A stretch of DNA of 44,645 bases from Rhodocyclaceae bacterium (GTDB lineage: Bacteria; Pseudomonadota; Gammaproteobacteria; Burkholderiales; Rhodocyclaceae). Below the pieces are notes generated by a model. That model had not been told where the DNA came from, ran no database searches, and was given only the letters and a program-made list of their open reading frames with translations. Positions within the stretch are counted from its first letter, which is position 1. Each line of letters starts with the position of its first letter. Positions 222-7,911 of this stretch are shown piece after piece. The translations under genes and the position numbers were made by a program. The stretch is taken from contig JANXRC010000274.1 in the NCBI GenBank assembly GCA_025353195.1, positions 1 to 44,645 on the forward strand. The letters run 5' to 3'.

Positions 222-767
222 ATGATCCTTGGACGCCCGACCCTGCTTCTCTGCTTCTATGTTTTAGTAGGCCTAATGTATGGATGCGATAAACCAAAGG
301 AAAGTGTGCCGTCTAGCGCGAACCAGACAGTAGAGTCAAAGCTCTCAGCTGACGATATCAAGAAGCTGCTAAATGAAGCGCTGAGTGAAATCGAAAAGAA
401 AAATTATGGTCATGCGACTGAGATCACGATAAAAATTACCAAATCCGATCCAAACAATACAGAGGCATACTACCTCTCTGCGGAAGCAAACAGCGCGTCT
501 GGGAACATAAAAGAAGCAATTGGTGCGTTGGAGCAAGCGATAAAAAATGGCTTCAATAATGCCGAGCGCGTTCTTAAAGACGAAAACTTGGCTACGTTGC
601 GAGCAGCACCCGAATTCCCGTCTGTATTCATCAAAATTGGTCCGCCCCAGCCAGCAAAGGTAAGTGACACAGAGATTAGCGCTGGCTCCGTCAACATTAA
701 GCAGGGAGCTGACGGCAGCCAAACAATAAAGGCTGGTGGTATTTCAATTCAGGTACCAAAAGACTGA
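222..767 (+). CDS. putative lipoprotein with a TPR-like segment
   Basis: A 181-aa protein. The N-terminus is a hydrophobic signal followed by a lipobox-like LMYGC with Cys at residue 22, so it is probably lipidated. Residues about 45-115 are helical; the stretch around SDPNNTEAYYLSAEA and IKEAIGALEQAIKNG has the spacing of a tetratricopeptide repeat. The C-terminus turns to a Gly/Ser/Ile-rich beta-like tail ending in ISIQVPKD. The start is supported by GGGAG eight bases before the ATG. It is the first gene of a four-gene plus-strand run of exported proteins. Function is unknown; TPR lipoproteins often scaffold envelope complexes, so a partner role with the next two proteins is inference. Confidence 0.7.
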   Translation: MILGRPTLLLCFYVLVGLMYGCDKPKESVPSSANQTVESKLSADDIKKLLNEALSEIEKKNYGHATEITIKITKSDPNNTEAYYLSAEANSASGNIKEAIGALEQAIKNGFNNAERVLKDENLATLRAAPEFPSVFIKIGPPQPAKVSDTEISAGSVNIKQGADGSQTIKAGGISIQVPKD

Positions 768-801
768 TTCTCGATTTGCTCAATTACCGGGAAGACAACA
801 C

Positions 802-2448
802 GTGAAGATCAAACTTTGCATAACGATAATTGCACTAGAGCTCTTTGCGGGATACGCAATTGCGGCAGATTTTGAAATGAATGGCCGGGCATCGGTATCG
901 GCAAGCGGTGATCCACAAACGATCAAGGCCTTGGCCATTCGTGCGGCTAAGAAGCAAGCCGTAGTGGCGGGAATTGACCGCATCGTCGGACCGGACGCAT
1001 CACAATCACCCGAAGCACAGAGCAAAATTCAGCGTATTACCGACAACATTAATGACAATAAGATCATTGATAGCAAAGGGTTGCGTGTCGGTGCCGATTA
1101 CGAGATGGTCGTCACTATCGTAATTGATGACAACGACTTCCGTAACTTGATCACAGATGCCGGACTTGCCGCGAATACAAATGCTGTTCGCGCAGGTGGA
1201 AAAATTCTTGCGGTGATGGATGAGTTTTTGACGAATCCACGCGATTTAAAGCAGCCATTGGAAGAGCTGACCGAGTTTCGCTCAGAAAAAGGAAAATCGT
1301 TTAAGGACAAATCTGTGGCCGCGGGTGCTAATAGCTCGGCCGCAGCGGCTCAAGCCAGTTCTTCCAAAACCGTTGATGCAGCCGCGGCATCGAATGCCAA
1401 GGCTTCGGGTTCATACGATTCGCGGCTCGATGCCAGCGGGCGCGAATCAGTTGCTGGCAGTGCGCGAGATGGTAGCGGCTCGGTGGCTGTTGGATCTTCA
1501 CGCGAAGGCAGCCTGAGTTCACGTGATAAAGGACAGTTTTCGGGAGAGGCGTCCTCTGCCGCAAGTTACAAGGAGCGGAATGCGTCCAATGCTGCCTCTG
1601 CCTCCGCACAAAACGCGTCCTCAATTAGTGCCAAGAACGTGCAATCTGAAGACCATGACAACGTTTACTACAAAAAATTGGTGAAGTACCAACCGCAGAA
1701 CGCCGCTCCGGAGAAAGTCAGTCAAACATATAACGCCATGGTTGGCATGCTTAACAAATATGACCTACAAGTGGCAGACAACGACATGTTTCGTTCAAAG
1801 TACTTTAAGAATAAGCCAATAACAATTGAACAGATGCAAAATAGTGAGCAACTTGTAAAGTATGTCTCCTTCGCTCGGTCTGAAGCGAAGGCCGACTACT
1901 TTATGGTGGGCACGACCATCATTATTGATTCTGGGCTAAACCCAAATAGTGGCAGTGTGACCTGTACTGGTGTCACCACGGTAAAGACATATGCGACCGA
2001 AGGCGCAGAAAGCATCGCCTCTACCACCGTGTCAGAAGCTGCCGAGGGACGTCAAATAAATGAGTGCGCTGGAAATCTGGCTATAAAACTTGCTGCAATT
2101 GCTGGAGCTGAGCTTGGTGCCGCTGTACAAGAACGGGCGAAGAAGAGGACAACCTACGGCAATGACTATTTTGTAACGCTAACCGGCAAAGGCATGACTG
2201 CCATTCTCAAGTTGCAGTTTTCAAAAGCCCTAAAGTCTATCCCTGGTCTGGCTACACCGAATCAGCGTTCCTCATCCGATACTGAACTGCAATATGCGGT
2301 GACGTTTAAGGGAGACGCAGCGAGCCTAACGGATTCACTAATCGAAGCACTAAGCAGCAACCCTCTTTTTGGCAGCCTTCAAACGAGTGCCAGCGGCAAT
2401 GATCTTCGTTTTTGCTTGGGTCCATGCGGCAAGGTTGTAAAAAAATGA
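802..2448 (+). CDS. secreted protein with FlgT-like N-terminus and Ser/Ala-rich linker
   Basis: The track opens this frame at a GTG at 736 inside the previous gene. I chose the GTG at 802 because it follows CCGGGAAG and gives a clean signal peptide ending near AIAADF. The product is about 548 aa. The first mature 100 residues (GRASVS, then ALAIRAAKKQAV and a D/N-rich strand) resemble the N-terminal domain of the flagellar assembly protein FlgT and related exported proteins. A low-complexity Ser/Ala/Gly stretch of about 110 residues follows, then a globular C-terminal part ending in LRFCLGPCGKVVKK. No flagellar gene is nearby, so a flagellar role is not implied. Its stop overlaps the next start by 4 bp (ATGA), indicating coupled translation. 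The resemblance is by eye. Confidence 0.65.
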   Translation: MKIKLCITIIALELFAGYAIAADFEMNGRASVSASGDPQTIKALAIRAAKKQAVVAGIDRIVGPDASQSPEAQSKIQRITDNINDNKIIDSKGLRVGADYEMVVTIVIDDNDFRNLITDAGLAANTNAVRAGGKILAVMDEFLTNPRDLKQPLEELTEFRSEKGKSFKDKSVAAGANSSAAAAQASSSKTVDAAAASNAKASGSYDSRLDASGRESVAGSARDGSGSVAVGSSREGSLSSRDKGQFSGEASSAASYKERNASNAASASAQNASSISAKNVQSEDHDNVYYKKLVKYQPQNAAPEKVSQTYNAMVGMLNKYDLQVADNDMFRSKYFKNKPITIEQMQNSEQLVKYVSFARSEAKADYFMVGTTIIIDSGLNPNSGSVTCTGVTTVKTYATEGAESIASTTVSEAAEGRQINECAGNLAIKLAAIAGAELGAAVQERAKKRTTYGNDYFVTLTGKGMTAILKLQFSKALKSIPGLATPNQRSSSDTELQYAVTFKGDAASLTDSLIEALSSNPLFGSLQTSASGNDLRFCLGPCGKVVKK

Positions 2449-4457
2449 CTCGTGGCATTTATTTCATCGCCATACTGATCTGGTGTGGAACGGGTTGGTG
2501 CTTGGACGCAAATATTAAGCTCTACCCCGTTGCCGCTGTTTTTTCTGTTGGGGGCACCCGTGCCCCTTCGCGGATAGATAACGACTTTACAGCCGCTCTA
2601 CCAAGTGCCCAAACCGGTAATGAGTTTGCTAAATCGATTCGCCTAGCCTTTCCTGACACGGTTGCAGCTATTACAGATGAAAACAAGCGACGAACATTTA
2701 CGGTGTCACTTCAGGTAGCGAGAGCTTCAAAATACCTAATAGATAAAAAAGATGGAACTCTGGACGTGTATTTGCCGATAACGGCGTCGATCTATTTCAC
2801 CAATCTAATGACCGGTGAGGTCCTGTTTACCGCAACAAGAACCCACATTACCCAAGGGACCTTCATTCGAAAGGATATTGAAACTGGGAGCCCCAAGATC
2901 CAGGCGCTGTATAGAAGCTCTTTCAATGAACTTTACGGTGAACTGATCAAAGAAGCGCGCGAGAAGTTTCAACCCCACACGATTCATGCTTCTGTACGTG
3001 GTGAGTGGAAAGGGCTCGCGATACTCGATAGTGGATCGCAATCAGGTATTCGACGTGGAGATAGCCTGCAAGATGCTTCCGGCGTTGAACTTCAGGTGAT
3101 ATCAGCAGGGCCTACCTACGCCATCGCATCAAAGCAGCTTGGAGAATTTAAGCCGGGAACGGCTTTTGCCAAGGTAACGAATCAAACGCTTGCGGAAATC
3201 AATCGACCACGGGTACTTCCGTTGATTGAACGCACACCCGCTGATCTTCCTGCGGAAACGATACTGCAACTTTTTTCGGATGCTTTGGGTTCGAAGGCTC
3301 CAATAAGTTTGATTCCGGTAAACCCTACGTTTGCGCAAGTATTGCAAACTGCAAGCGCGAACTCATCCATTAGTCAGCAAGTGATCTACAAGAGAGAACT
3401 GCCTGGATTCTTTCTCCGTCTAAAGGTGAGTGATCCAGTGGAGTACGAAATACCTACAAACCTAGCTTACAAGACTCGGCGGGTTTACGAAGCTATGGCT
3501 TTAGCTGACCTTGTAGATCGAGAAGGCCGGGTGTTGTTTTCTGGATATGGAATAAATCGCATTGAAGACGAGGTCGTCTCGGGCATTGCATTTAATCCAG
3601 CAGCACGTAGAGAAGTAGTGATTAAGAACGCGCTATTGGATTTAGCTAATCGTTTCGCACGTGAGATGAAGTTCGAAAACGCGCAATTACCAGTTATTAG
3701 CGCTATTACAAGCGAAAGAGAATTTGGCTTGCAAGATACGCACGGCATGCTTACAAAGGGTAGTAATTGGCGTGTATACCGGTCAATTGGAAATATCCCA
3801 GGTATCAGTGGACCAGTATCGGTGCCCACATGGGAAATTCGTGTTGCTGAGGTCTCTGGCGAGAAGGCCAGGGCAGTTCTTGACATGCCAATAGTAGAAG
3901 GGGCGCCAGAGCCAGCGATGGGGGATGTTGTTTTTCTCGATGGTGTTGCAGGTAGCCAGCTGATCACCCAAAAGCACTTCGGCTTATGTCCTGAACAAAA
4001 GCTGGGAGCGATTGAAATTCCCTATTACGGTGACTTGGCAGCGAACGTATTCGCTGCGAGCGTGCATGTTCCATATTTCTCGCCCGGTCTGGCTCAAAAG
4101 GTAAATGAGTTGGTTAGTTCAGGTAGTGGATTTCGAGCGAACGCGGCCTTCAAAGAATCCGGAATTGATTACTGTGTGGAACCAGTTTATCGAATTGATT
4201 CGGTCGGGTCGAAATGCGAAGACTCCTTCTGTCGAGAAACGGCCATGGTGCGGCTGACATACCGAATTCGAACAGGTGGTATCGCAACTGGAGAAATCAA
4301 GGCCAGACATGGGCTTGAAATGCGCGTGACATCTGCTGGTATTTCGAAGACCGCCTCTGATGAGGTGCGAATGAATGCATTGAAGTCAGACGTCATAGTT
4401 GAAATCATCAAAATGAATTCGCAGATTGGGGCGATCCTCAATAGAGAGAACTATTAA
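2445..4457 (+). CDS. large exported protein of unknown function, FlgT-like features
   Basis: The ATG at 2445 overlaps the upstream stop by 4 bp and gives a signal peptide (MTRGIYFIAILIWCGTGWC), better than the track start at 2412. The product is 670 aa. Two segments look related: around mature residues 175-230, GLAILDSGSQSGIRRGDSL followed by short strands, and near residues 425-500, a region ending in GDVVFLDG. Both have the G-x-x-x-G-D pattern of the small beta domains seen in FlgT-like proteins. A C-terminal region has four scattered Cys (CVEP, CEDSFC), possibly disulfide-bonded in the periplasm. With the upstream gene it is likely to form one envelope system. Family assignment is tentative. 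Confidence 0.65.
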   Translation: MTRGIYFIAILIWCGTGWCLDANIKLYPVAAVFSVGGTRAPSRIDNDFTAALPSAQTGNEFAKSIRLAFPDTVAAITDENKRRTFTVSLQVARASKYLIDKKDGTLDVYLPITASIYFTNLMTGEVLFTATRTHITQGTFIRKDIETGSPKIQALYRSSFNELYGELIKEAREKFQPHTIHASVRGEWKGLAILDSGSQSGIRRGDSLQDASGVELQVISAGPTYAIASKQLGEFKPGTAFAKVTNQTLAEINRPRVLPLIERTPADLPAETILQLFSDALGSKAPISLIPVNPTFAQVLQTASANSSISQQVIYKRELPGFFLRLKVSDPVEYEIPTNLAYKTRRVYEAMALADLVDREGRVLFSGYGINRIEDEVVSGIAFNPAARREVVIKNALLDLANRFAREMKFENAQLPVISAITSEREFGLQDTHGMLTKGSNWRVYRSIGNIPGISGPVSVPTWEIRVAEVSGEKARAVLDMPIVEGAPEPAMGDVVFLDGVAGSQLITQKHFGLCPEQKLGAIEIPYYGDLAANVFAASVHVPYFSPGLAQKVNELVSSGSGFRANAAFKESGIDYCVEPVYRIDSVGSKCEDSFCRETAMVRLTYRIRTGGIATGEIKARHGLEMRVTSAGISKTASDEVRMNALKSDVIVEIIKMNSQIGAILNRENY

Positions 4458-4478
4458 TCAACAAACTGGAGAACTAGA

Positions 4479-5141
4479 ATGAAAAGAATTACGTTAGCGG
4501 TATTCGTCGTTGCTTGTCTCGGTGTGACGCCATCCGTCGGCTTGGCTCAGTTTGGCGGGTTGAAGTTACCTGGAACGCCTTCCAGTAACTCCGCGCCGGC
4601 TGGAGACATAGACGCGTTCCTAAAAACTGCTGCAGATGCAGAAGGCCTCGTTCGCAAGTCCAGCGACGTGCTATTTCAAGCAGTGGCGACAAAAGATCAG
4701 ATTGCGCAGCACGATGCGCAAGTACAGGCAGCCAATGCCATCGCTGATCCGAAGGAGAAGGAAGCTGCCCTAAAAAAGGCAGCTGACGATGAGCAAGCGC
4801 AATTGGCAAAAGTTGACTATGCAGCGTCGGCCAAGACGATGTCTGCGAATTTGGACGCCAAGAAGAAAGCGCAAGTCGGATCAGCCATCTGGAACTTTAT
4901 GCTTGGGATGATGAAAGACAAGGAACTAATCGATCAGGGCCAGGGAATCATCGCCTCAGTTTCATCAAATCCGATGGCTGCTACTAAAGTTGTCAAAGCG
5001 AAGGACGTGGTGTCTTCCATTTCTAGCCAAATGGGAAATATCACGAAAATCGCGGCAGGTCTTCAAAAGCTCGCTTCCGTGGTTGGAATCGATAAACTGC
5101 CGTCAAAGTCCTCGGAGGCGCCGGTCGCTGCTGCGGATTAA
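4479..5141 (+). CDS. secreted Ala/Lys-rich helical protein, unknown function
   Basis: A 220-aa protein with a clear signal peptide (MKRITLAVFVVACLGVTPSVGLAQ) cleaved near residue 24. The mature part is Ala-, Lys- and Asp-rich and predicted helical, with heptad-like spacing around residues 50-135 and a second helical block at 145-205. It has no cysteines after the signal and no recognisable catalytic motif. GGAG lies eight bases upstream of the ATG, and the gene begins 21 bp after the preceding stop, so it is the last gene of the four-gene run. Being secreted with the two FlgT-like proteins suggests a shared periplasmic or outer-membrane role, which is inference. Confidence 0.65.
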   Translation: MKRITLAVFVVACLGVTPSVGLAQFGGLKLPGTPSSNSAPAGDIDAFLKTAADAEGLVRKSSDVLFQAVATKDQIAQHDAQVQAANAIADPKEKEAALKKAADDEQAQLAKVDYAASAKTMSANLDAKKKAQVGSAIWNFMLGMMKDKELIDQGQGIIASVSSNPMAATKVVKAKDVVSSISSQMGNITKIAAGLQKLASVVGIDKLPSKSSEAPVAAAD

Positions 5142-5455: not shown

Positions 5456-5962
5456 ATGGCTTTGTCCGATACGGAAAATGCCGTCTGGCGTATTCCTGCG
5501 GCTAACAGCAAGAGCAAGAGAACCCGTTCGGTGCCGCTGAACGATTCGGCCTTATGGGTGCTGGAGCAGATCGGCACTCGGGACGCAGGCGGGGTGGTGT
5601 TCGCCAATCCGGAAACGGGTGAAGCCTACACGCCCGTAACCCATGCCTGGTATCGCATCCGCAAGTTGGCCGGTATCCCGCATCTGCGCATCCATGACCT
5701 GCGTCATTCCTTCGCCAGCCTGCTGGTATCGGGGGGTCGATCGCTTTACGAAGTGCAGCAGATTCTCGGGCACTCAGACCCGAAGGTGACCATGCGCTAT
5801 GCCCATCTCTCGACAAGGGCATTGCTCGACGCGGCCAACACGGCGTCGGTGATCGTGCTGAAACCGCAACCGGCGGCAACACCACCAGCAGCGAAGGAAG
5901 CTGAGGCAATACTGGCAGTAACCCAGACGGCAGAGGTATTGCAGTTCCCACGGGCAGCGTAG
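5456..5962 (+). pseudogene. tyrosine integrase, C-terminal catalytic fragment
   Basis: The 168-aa frame is the catalytic half of a phage-type tyrosine recombinase: a beta-strand Lys region (NSKSKRTRSVPL), then H80 and R83 in HDLRH, H106 in LGHSD and the nucleophile Y115 in TMRYAHL. The core-binding domain and the first catalytic Arg are missing, and two stops (TAG TGA) sit immediately before the ATG, so it cannot be active alone. A Pro/Ala-rich tail follows the catalytic Tyr. It points toward the tRNA-Phe scar and is probably a remnant of the recombinase, or of a second element, that shaped this island. Confidence 0.8.
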
Positions 5963-6020: not shown

Positions 6021-6042
6021 AGTGCAACAGTTGCACTATAAT
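6021..6042 (+). promoter_or_regulatory. palindromic operator overlapping a consensus -10, leaderless promoter
   Basis: A perfect inverted repeat AGTGCAA-CAG-TTGCACT (6021-6037) runs directly into a consensus -10, TATAAT (6037-6042). The -10 ends six bases before the ATG at 6049, so transcription should begin at or next to the start codon and the mRNA would be leaderless. No good -35 is visible. The layout suggests autorepression by the HTH protein encoded second in the pair. Confidence 0.6.
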
Positions 6043-6048
6043 GGGCGC

Positions 6049-6279
6049 ATGCCTGTAATCGCACGATTCCCCAATTGCCGGGTCAGAATCAATGCCAACG
6101 ACCACCCGCCTCCGCATTTTCATGTACTGATGAATGATGGGCGTGAGGCTTGGGTGACCATTGCGGAACTGAAGATTGTCTATGGCAAGGTGGTCGTTCG
6201 AGAGATTGCCGATGTGTTGTCTTGGGCTGCGGCAAACCGAAGCATGCTGGCCGCCAAATTCAAGGAGTTGCAACGATGA
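6049..6279 (+). CDS. DUF4160 protein, toxin-like partner
   Basis: Starting at ATG 6049 gives a 76-aa protein beginning MPVIARF and containing NDHPPPHFHV, the signature of DUF4160 proteins. I rejected the track start at 6022 because family members begin at this MP motif and the -10 box lies between the two. No Shine-Dalgarno is present, consistent with leaderless translation. DUF4160 genes commonly precede DUF2442 genes in two-gene units that resemble toxin-antitoxin modules; no biochemical activity is established that I can cite. The end overlaps the next start by 4 bp (ATGA). Confidence 0.8.
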   Translation: MPVIARFPNCRVRINANDHPPPHFHVLMNDGREAWVTIAELKIVYGKVVVREIADVLSWAAANRSMLAAKFKELQR

Positions 6280-6773
6280 GCAAAGACCATTTTGTGCTGA
6301 CTGCGGTAAAGGCTTTGCCCAACTATCGTTTGCGGCTGGCTTATGCCGACGATCAATCCTACGAGGTTGAACTGGGTGACTTGATCCGTAAATCCAAGTT
6401 TTTGGCAGCCTTGAAGGACGAGAAACTGTTCATGAAGGCCAGGAAAGGCTTTGCCGGTCGATCGGTCGACTGGATCGAGGATGAGCTTGACATGGGTTCC
6501 GATAACTTGCGCAACATGGCGGTTGAACAGGCAGGAGGAATTGGCCATGAGCGTATCTGGACATGGCTGCACGAGACCGGCCTGACACTGGAGCAAGCTG
6601 CGGAGGCCCTGGGTATCTCCAGGCGAATGCTGATCTATTACCGCGACGGAGAGAAGCCAATCCCGCGATCGATCTGGTTAGCCTGTCTCGGTTGGCAGGC
6701 AGTACGTCCCAAAGGGCAGGCGCTGCCTTTACATACACCCTCGCCAAAGGAGTATGCAGCGTTGCACGCGTAG
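6276..6773 (+). CDS. DUF2442 domain protein with C-terminal HTH
   Basis: A 165-aa protein starting at the ATG that overlaps the DUF4160 stop; AAGGAG lies nine bases upstream. Residues about 5-85 match the DUF2442 pattern (small beta-rich domain, LRLAYADDQSYEVELGDLI). Residues about 92-140 form a helix-turn-helix (GLTLEQAAEALGISRRMLIYYRDGEK). The fusion makes it a plausible DNA-binding antitoxin and autoregulator of the pair, with the palindrome at 6021-6037 as its likely site. Function is inferred from architecture and gene order. The long frame at 6563-6985 in another phase is a shadow. Confidence 0.75.
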   Translation: MSKDHFVLTAVKALPNYRLRLAYADDQSYEVELGDLIRKSKFLAALKDEKLFMKARKGFAGRSVDWIEDELDMGSDNLRNMAVEQAGGIGHERIWTWLHETGLTLEQAAEALGISRRMLIYYRDGEKPIPRSIWLACLGWQAVRPKGQALPLHTPSPKEYAALHA

Positions 6774-7119: not shown

Positions 7120-7911
7120 ATGACTTCCACTCCTGACCACAGCCGCCGCTTCGGCGGCATAGAGCGCCTGTATGGCGCCGGGGCGCTGCTGCGTCTTGCG
7201 GCGGCGCACGTGGTGGTGGTGGGTATCGGCGGCGTCGGTTCGTGGTCGGCGGAGGCGCTGGCGCGCTCCGGCGTCGGTCGGTTGACGCTGATCGATCTGG
7301 ATCATGTGGCCGAATCCAACGTCAACCGCCAGATTCAGGCTTTGGAATCGACCTTCGGTGCGGCCAAGGTAGCGGCCATGAAGGACCGCATCGCGGCGAT
7401 CAATCCGGCCTGCGTGGTCGACACCGTGGAAGAGTTCATCGACGAAACCAATCTGGCGACACTGATTCCGCCCTGCGATGCGGTAATTGACGCCATCGAC
7501 CAGGTGCGCGCCAAGGCGGCATTGATAGCCTGGTGCCGGCGCGTCGGCATCCGCGTCGTGACTACCGGTGCCGCCGGCGGTCGTACCGACCCGACGCAGA
7601 TCGAAGTCATCGATTTGTCGCGTACCACGCAGGATGCGCTGGCTTCGAAAGTGCGGGCGCGACTGCGCAAGGACTATGGTTTCCCGCGTGACCCGAAGAA
7701 GAAGTTCGGCGTCGAGTGCGTGTTTTCGCCGCAGCAGATTCGCCGTATTGCCAGCACCAACTCTTGCGCGGTGGAGGGCGATGCCGTCGATGACGCGATT
7801 GACCCGGCTGCGGGACTCAACTGCGCCGGTTACGGCTCATCAGTGGCGGTCACGGCCAGTTTTGGTTTCGCTGCGGCGGCGCGGGTTCTCGCCGGTATAC
7901 TTGAAGCATGA
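7120..7911 (+). CDS. tcdA: tRNA threonylcarbamoyladenosine dehydratase
   Basis: TcdA (CsdL/YgdL) dehydrates t6A37 to its cyclic form in ANN-decoding tRNAs, using ATP. The 263-aa product has the E1/ThiF-type nucleotide fold: RFGGIERLYG at residues 10-19, VVVVGIGGVGSW at 31-42, LIDLDHVAESNVNRQ around 57-71, and the later FGVECVFS and GYGSSVAVTASFG motifs. The track start at 6982 would read through the tRNA scar and its terminator; the ATG at 7120 gives the family N-terminus. It opens a tight plus-strand run of RNA-modification and cofactor genes. Confidence 0.92.
   Translation: MTSTPDHSRRFGGIERLYGAGALLRLAAAHVVVVGIGGVGSWSAEALARSGVGRLTLIDLDHVAESNVNRQIQALESTFGAAKVAAMKDRIAAINPACVVDTVEEFIDETNLATLIPPCDAVIDAIDQVRAKAALIAWCRRVGIRVVTTGAAGGRTDPTQIEVIDLSRTTQDALASKVRARLRKDYGFPRDPKKKFGVECVFSPQQIRRIASTNSCAVEGDAVDDAIDPAAGLNCAGYGSSVAVTASFGFAAAARVLAGILEA

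Follow-up and report, generated by a model that had tools for sequence, protein, structure and literature searches.

The window, i.e. the whole stretch of 44,645 nucleotides that was analysed, comes from a Rhodocyclaceae bacterium and carries at one end an operon of four genes. The first-pass annotation had placed four genes for exported proteins in order at 222–5141, and an ORF check confirmed this arrangement, with all four genes on the + strand. The features of the locus are as follows.

222–767, + strand: gene 1, 181 aa; lipoprotein containing a TPR-like region, C-terminal tail conserved (AGS-VNI...AGGISI); the variable component
802–2448, + strand: gene 2, 548 aa; signal peptide, FlgT_N-like domain (residues 22–120), FlgT_M/CsgG-like domain with an insert, C-terminal alpha/beta domain (454–539)
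1246–1716, + strand: low-complexity insert of gene 2, residues 149–305 of 548 (core 161–284)
2445–4457, + strand: gene 3, 670 aa, start codon ATG at 2445; three FlgT_M/CsgG-type modules (A to C, residues ~84–174, 322–407 and 576–665) and two small barrels (178–245 and 410–501)
2445–2448, + strand: ATGA overlap of 4 bp between the stop of gene 2 and the start of gene 3
4479–5141, + strand: gene 4, 220 aa; small, exported and Cys-free, presumed helical, without a family match

The reading frame of gene 2 opens at 736, and the GTG at 802 is the start that agrees with the signal peptide. The reported 4-bp overlap between the two central genes was confirmed as the ATGA at 2445–2448; in the relatives that were read, this junction ranges from about -11 to +2 bp. 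The export signals are also present as described: the lipobox Cys of gene 1 is invariant (10/10 aligned copies), and proteins 2, 3 and 4 have hydrophobic N-termini, as judged by eye. A promoter scan gave nothing above chance.

The placement of the operon on an island is supported by three observations. Its GC content is 48.8%, compared with 63.1% in the rest of the window; a truncated tyrosine recombinase (integrase) gene is found at 5456–5962; and gene 4 is missing from 30/30 congeneric genomes, which marks the operon region as accessory. The recombinase fragment starts inside the catalytic domain (profile positions 50–169 of 172) and is probably a remnant of the island's integrase. Next come a DUF4160 ORF (6022–6279) and an ORF that weakly matches DUF2442 and has a helix-turn-helix region (together 6022–6773), a pair that may belong to the mobile region. 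Downstream of the recombinase fragment and the DUF4160 ORF, we found ordinary chromosomal genes. ARAGORN reported a tRNA-Arg at 7164–7259 within a ThiF/TcdA-like gene, but with its 96 bases and its location in a coding frame it looks like a false positive. The left end of the island is out of view because the window begins at the contig edge, and a scan of the region found no flanking repeats marking the island ends.

Protein 3 was used to search for relatives of the operon. The 299 other genomes of the order contained one, the 72,556 plasmid records five and a species-representative collection at least 17 loci, the last figure being a lower bound because one degenerate pattern was used. Among 368 other genomes of the class, no full-length relative was found; six weak matches (E 0.001–0.008) covered only the first barrel region. 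No full-length relative of protein 2 was detected among 398 other genomes of the phylum, and no relatives were found in viral contigs or phages. The carriers are alpha-, beta- and gamma-proteobacteria: Cupriavidus, Caballeronia and other beta-proteobacteria, Acinetobacter, Psychrobacter and Novosphingobium. Copies were found on plasmids of Psychrobacter (49 kb) and Novosphingobium (35 kb), and protein 3 of the Psychrobacter plasmid is 82.7% identical to that of an Acinetobacter genome, which together indicate transfer. The operon is thus a rare, horizontally moving accessory unit.

Co-occurrence of the genes in other genomes had been proposed as a check of the unit. With profiles of each protein, we found genes 2, 3 and 4 adjacent, on the same strand and in that order in 23/23 loci outside the window. 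Since these loci were located through gene 3 alone, the presence of genes 2 and 4 is an independent test, and chance is excluded as the reason for the grouping by its recurrence in 23 other loci. The four-gene unit of the first-pass annotation therefore has a conserved core of genes 2 to 4, while the lipoprotein gene 1 is variable. The reading frames are intact in 21 of the 23 relatives, with frameshifts in loci L007 and L015. Clustering of the flanking ORFs of the 23 loci revealed no further conserved neighbour, and the flanks are unrelated. The identities of proteins 2, 3 and 4 fall in parallel over 19 loci (Spearman 0.86–0.91, shared phylogeny not removed), a pattern that shared ancestry alone would also give. 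Directly upstream of gene 2, two loci carry Type I restriction R subunits with differing C-terminal domains (L018:1848-5030, Psychrobacter glacincola, and L021:1786-4689, Acinetobacter sp. ANC 4204), and a HipA-like gene lies upstream in L020.

The description of the gene 1 product as a TPR-like lipoprotein was borne out by an NCBIfam TPR_END_plus match above the cut-off, together with the invariant lipobox Cys; Pfam TPR_19 stayed just under its cut-off. Among 24 loci including the window, the full TPR form is present in 8 and a mini form in 4–5, and the gene is lost in L009. No gene 1 was found upstream in ten Moraxellaceae loci, so the lipoprotein anchor is not essential there. In four Cupriavidus loci, gene 1 is reduced to 71–85 aa that consist of the signal peptide, the Cys and a tail of the type AGDASVETSDTGTVVRAGDVSVSI. 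The full TPR forms end in the same tail as the mini forms; what is kept is thus the tail, and the TPR region can be dispensed with. In Cupriavidus pampae (L009:5197-5400), gene 1 has been deleted naturally, and its start region now stands ahead of the gene 2 signal peptide. The residue following the lipobox Cys is Asp in the window copy, and Lys, Asn, Ser or Gly in the relatives. In E. coli, Asp at this position is a possible mark for retention in the inner membrane.

Pfam, NCBIfam, PADLOC and PHROGs contained no usable family for proteins 2, 3 or 4, and PDB sequence searches, profiles included, gave no useful match. A fibroin match of protein 2 in the PDB sequence search was due to its low-complexity insert and was discarded. 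With Pfam FlgT_N, we obtained a match of only E 0.015 in one relative of protein 2, and membership at the curated cut-off was not established. The FlgT-like nature of the window proteins is invisible to Pfam; it is supported by a structure search, in which AlphaFold models were compared with the PDB by Foldseek, and by profile-profile comparison. The FlgT-family profile was built here from FlgT_N-containing proteins, and reversed and shuffled controls were scored against it.

The model of protein 3 is good (pLDDT 77, pTM 0.77). A unit made of a long helix and a three-stranded sheet of long strands occurs in it three times, with two small barrels in between. The top Foldseek match was FlgT in the LPHT ring (8z5n, E 5.2e-11), followed by FlgT 3w1e (1.6e-9). 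Against the FlgT-family profile, module A scored 36.4 (controls at most 19.8), and modules B and C did not exceed their controls. We also considered membership of protein 3 in the MreC family (matches in 9/23 members, best E 0.0012) and rejected it, reading these matches as a resemblance of one small barrel. A lipobox-like motif (LAAC/LTAC) is present in 3/23 copies of protein 3, all from Cupriavidus (L007, L010 and L025); going by this motif, protein 3 may have become the lipidated protein in some lineages.

The model of protein 2 is weak (mean pLDDT 57, pTM 0.39). It comprises three domains: a FlgT_N-like one, a FlgT_M/CsgG-like one whose first strand and first helix are separated by a disordered insert, and an alpha/beta domain at the C-terminus; pLDDT falls below 50 across residues 148–305, the span of the insert. 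Foldseek again listed FlgT first, in the LPHT ring (8z5n, 3.8e-5) and as 3w1e (5.5e-5), and then HpaA, CsgG, GNA1162 and PelC. The N domain (residues ~22–125) matched the FlgT-family profile with a probability of 85–88 and a score of 43.5 (controls at most 15.0) and the middle domain with a score of 32.4 (controls at most 20.2). The C-terminal domain was not above its reversed and shuffled controls. A Ser/Ala/Gly linker, given earlier as 110 residues, proved to be a real stretch at residues 161–284, with 58% S/A/G and no Cys. The insert is kept in 22/22 aligned copies of protein 2, always 84–132 aa long, with 52–61% S/A/G, free of Cys and with at most five of I, L, M, F and W. Proteins 2 and 3 contain conserved Cys which, like the invariant lipobox Cys of gene 1, speak for an envelope location. 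No relatedness between the two proteins was detectable by profile comparison.

Taken together, the models and profiles support the view that proteins 2 and 3 are built from FlgT-type modules, with profile support for the N and middle domains of protein 2 and for module A of protein 3; since TM-scores over the whole chain are low (0.32 or less on FlgT), the FlgT matches count at the level of modules. The earlier assignment of FlgT-like domains to both proteins is in line with structure and profile comparison, but protein 3 turned out to be larger than it implied, with its three repeated modules and two barrels. The structure search, which had been suggested as a check, returned a fold class (FlgT/CsgG/PelC) and not one known single system. 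This class is not confined to ring proteins, as the Foldseek lists also hold LptE and HpaA.

Protein 4 is always the last gene product of the operon and contains no Cys. Its helical nature is presumed from composition and reading by eye. It matched no pilin, amyloid or adhesin family, has no segment of transmembrane-strength hydrophobicity and was not above the controls against the FlgT-family profile. None of the operon proteins falls into a recognised enzymatic family.

Our tentative preference is for a stand-alone periplasmic ring or collar of proteins 2 and 3 that is linked to the outer membrane and has protein 4 as its client; the ring, its location and the client role are what we infer from these data. 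The fold class of proteins 2 and 3 is best known for members that build rings at the outer membrane (the H-ring and PelC), and by analogy the same might hold here. Proteins 2 and 3 would be made in a fixed ratio through translational coupling and would come together in the periplasm as a ring or collar at the outer membrane. Where present, the lipoprotein could anchor or recruit the collar by means of the conserved tail at its C-terminus, and the TPR part would then serve as an optional spacer. Protein 4 would be assembled on the collar, held by it or passed through it. It counts against such a collar that the operon encodes no energy source, inner-membrane part or barrel.

The same lack of a recognisable pore, ATPase or inner-membrane part would fit proteins 2 and 3 being a collar or accessory on one of the host's existing envelope machines, for example a type IV pilus or the secretin of type II secretion, with protein 4 as a fitting or regulatory subunit. 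FlgT itself, together with FlgO and FlgP, decorates another machine in this way, as the H-ring that they form surrounds the flagellar L-ring (PMC6375700). The absence of a conserved neighbour also suits an accessory of this kind, but no partner machine is linked to the operon and its carriers are spread across alpha-, beta- and gamma-proteobacteria; we regard this explanation as somewhat unlikely.

It is also conceivable, but unlikely, that the operon builds a surface structure, either an adhesin or a filament, in which protein 4 would be the surface subunit, proteins 2 and 3 the assembly platform and the Ser/Ala/Gly insert a flexible stalk. Protein 4 is small, exported, free of Cys and last in the operon in every locus, the insert is of low complexity in every relative, and the adhesin lipoprotein HpaA is among the fold matches of protein 2. 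These points have to be weighed against the lack of a pilin, amyloid or adhesin family match for protein 4 and of any encoded chaperone, usher or recognisable outer-membrane channel.

A more elaborate version of the ring would be a stand-alone envelope machine that is functionally unrelated to flagella or curli. In it, protein 2 would form rings, and its inserts, one per subunit, nearly devoid of hydrophobic residues and located where CsgG has its constriction loop, would be a disordered gate in the lumen, protein 3 a large stacked periplasmic collar and protein 4 an exported or gated client, all encoded by a cassette of three or four genes moving between proteobacteria. In this detail, we consider it doubtful, and rather improbable as a whole.

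We see little probability in a cargo directed against competitors or phages, with protein 4 as a membrane-active helical effector or receptor blocker that is stored or released by proteins 2 and 3. The patchy spread on plasmids and islands would agree with such a role, as would the type I restriction R subunit upstream in two Moraxellaceae loci and the HipA-like gene in one. However, these are two or three defence-like neighbours among 23 loci and possibly due to chance in variable regions. PADLOC gave no meaningful match, no immunity gene was recognised, and a hydrophobic segment of the strength expected for a transmembrane helix is missing from protein 4.

Neither the host assembly (99.5% complete) nor seven Moraxellaceae carriers contain flagellin (PF00669), and therefore the operon is not flagellar. 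Five beta-proteobacterial carriers do have flagellin, and the control genomes gave the expected results. The statement that no flagellar gene is nearby thus holds and extends to the lack of flagellin in the whole host assembly; the host genome also has no FlgT_N family match and no CsgG (PF03783) match. Despite FlgT being the top structural match for both central proteins, it is extremely improbable that the operon is a leftover or an outlying part of the genes for a flagellar H-ring, given these flagellin-free hosts, the whole operons on small plasmids and the intact frames in nearly all relatives.

The suggestion of an undescribed envelope apparatus is upheld insofar as this is a conserved operon of exported proteins with predicted FlgT-type folds and no known single system; the modules themselves belong to a known fold class. 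In the openly available literature on FlgT relatives outside flagella, we found no description of the operon. So far, FlgT-type ring modules have been known chiefly from the flagellar motor, which they decorate. Here a mobile operon takes them into bacteria without flagellin, which suggests that the architecture works alone or on another machine. The operon offers a small, tractable gene set for learning what FlgT-type modules build. If the ring is confirmed, Acinetobacter, Psychrobacter and Cupriavidus would have one more envelope assembly, so far uncharacterised, and the finding would bear on a shared origin of flagellar rings and curli-type channels.

Among the known systems, PelC shares the module fold, as seen in the Foldseek list of protein 2. 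It forms a 12-mer ring on PelB (PMC12141448), and the periplasmic ring at the outer membrane is a feature of PelC that proteins 2 and 3 may have in common with it. PelC is a single-domain lipoprotein on a barrel partner, whereas the proteins described here have multiple domains and no barrel. Unlike the Pel operon, the locus has no conserved polysaccharide genes or other neighbours.

CsgG (PF03783) also has the module fold, and the insert of protein 2 sits between the first strand and the first helix, the place of the CsgG constriction loop. This loop was assigned to residues 47–58 (PMC9245180), with the constriction residues Tyr66, Asn70 and Phe71 in precursor numbering (PMC7304575). The correspondence is one of topology, because the middle domain, when compared with the CsgG profile, did no better than its reversed control. 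Curli export likewise has a small operon, there with exported clients; no operon member described here has a CsgG Pfam match, and no relatives of CsgA, CsgB, CsgE or CsgF were recognised. A CsgG-type pore is unlikely, since the two transmembrane beta-hairpins per subunit were not seen: unlike in CsgG, the models of proteins 2 and 3 have no transmembrane hairpin inserts and their strand connections are short (the protein 2 model being of low confidence). CsgG is lipid-anchored, whereas protein 2 shows no lipobox by eye.

FlgT_N proteins outside flagellar FlgT (e.g. L040, 379 aa) have the same order as protein 2, with an N-domain, a middle module and a C-terminal alpha/beta domain. They differ from it in having no insert, and the sequence match of the C-terminal domain is not above controls. 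In the one locus inspected, such a protein (L056:5830-6969), with the domain order of gene 2 and no insert, is followed by genes other than those of the operon, the first for a large protein that is CHASE2-like by eye; it is part of a wider FlgT_N set that is not obviously flagellar.

The closest comparison is with FlgT of the Vibrio polar flagellum H-ring (PF16548/PF16539/PF16538; PDB 3w1e, 8z5n). Unlike FlgT, the operon has many carriers without a flagellum, no FlgO or FlgP was recognised alongside it, and the Pfam cut-offs are not reached. The proteins are also longer (548 and 670 aa), with the Ser/Ala/Gly insert in protein 2 and two extra modules in protein 3. Like FlgT, both are exported, a FlgT_N-like domain stands at the N-terminus of protein 2, and the first third of protein 3 is collinear with the FlgT_M-to-FlgT_C order. 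What FlgT holds in one chain of ~350–420 aa is here divided between two proteins, with the N-type domain in protein 2 and the M/C-type order in protein 3.
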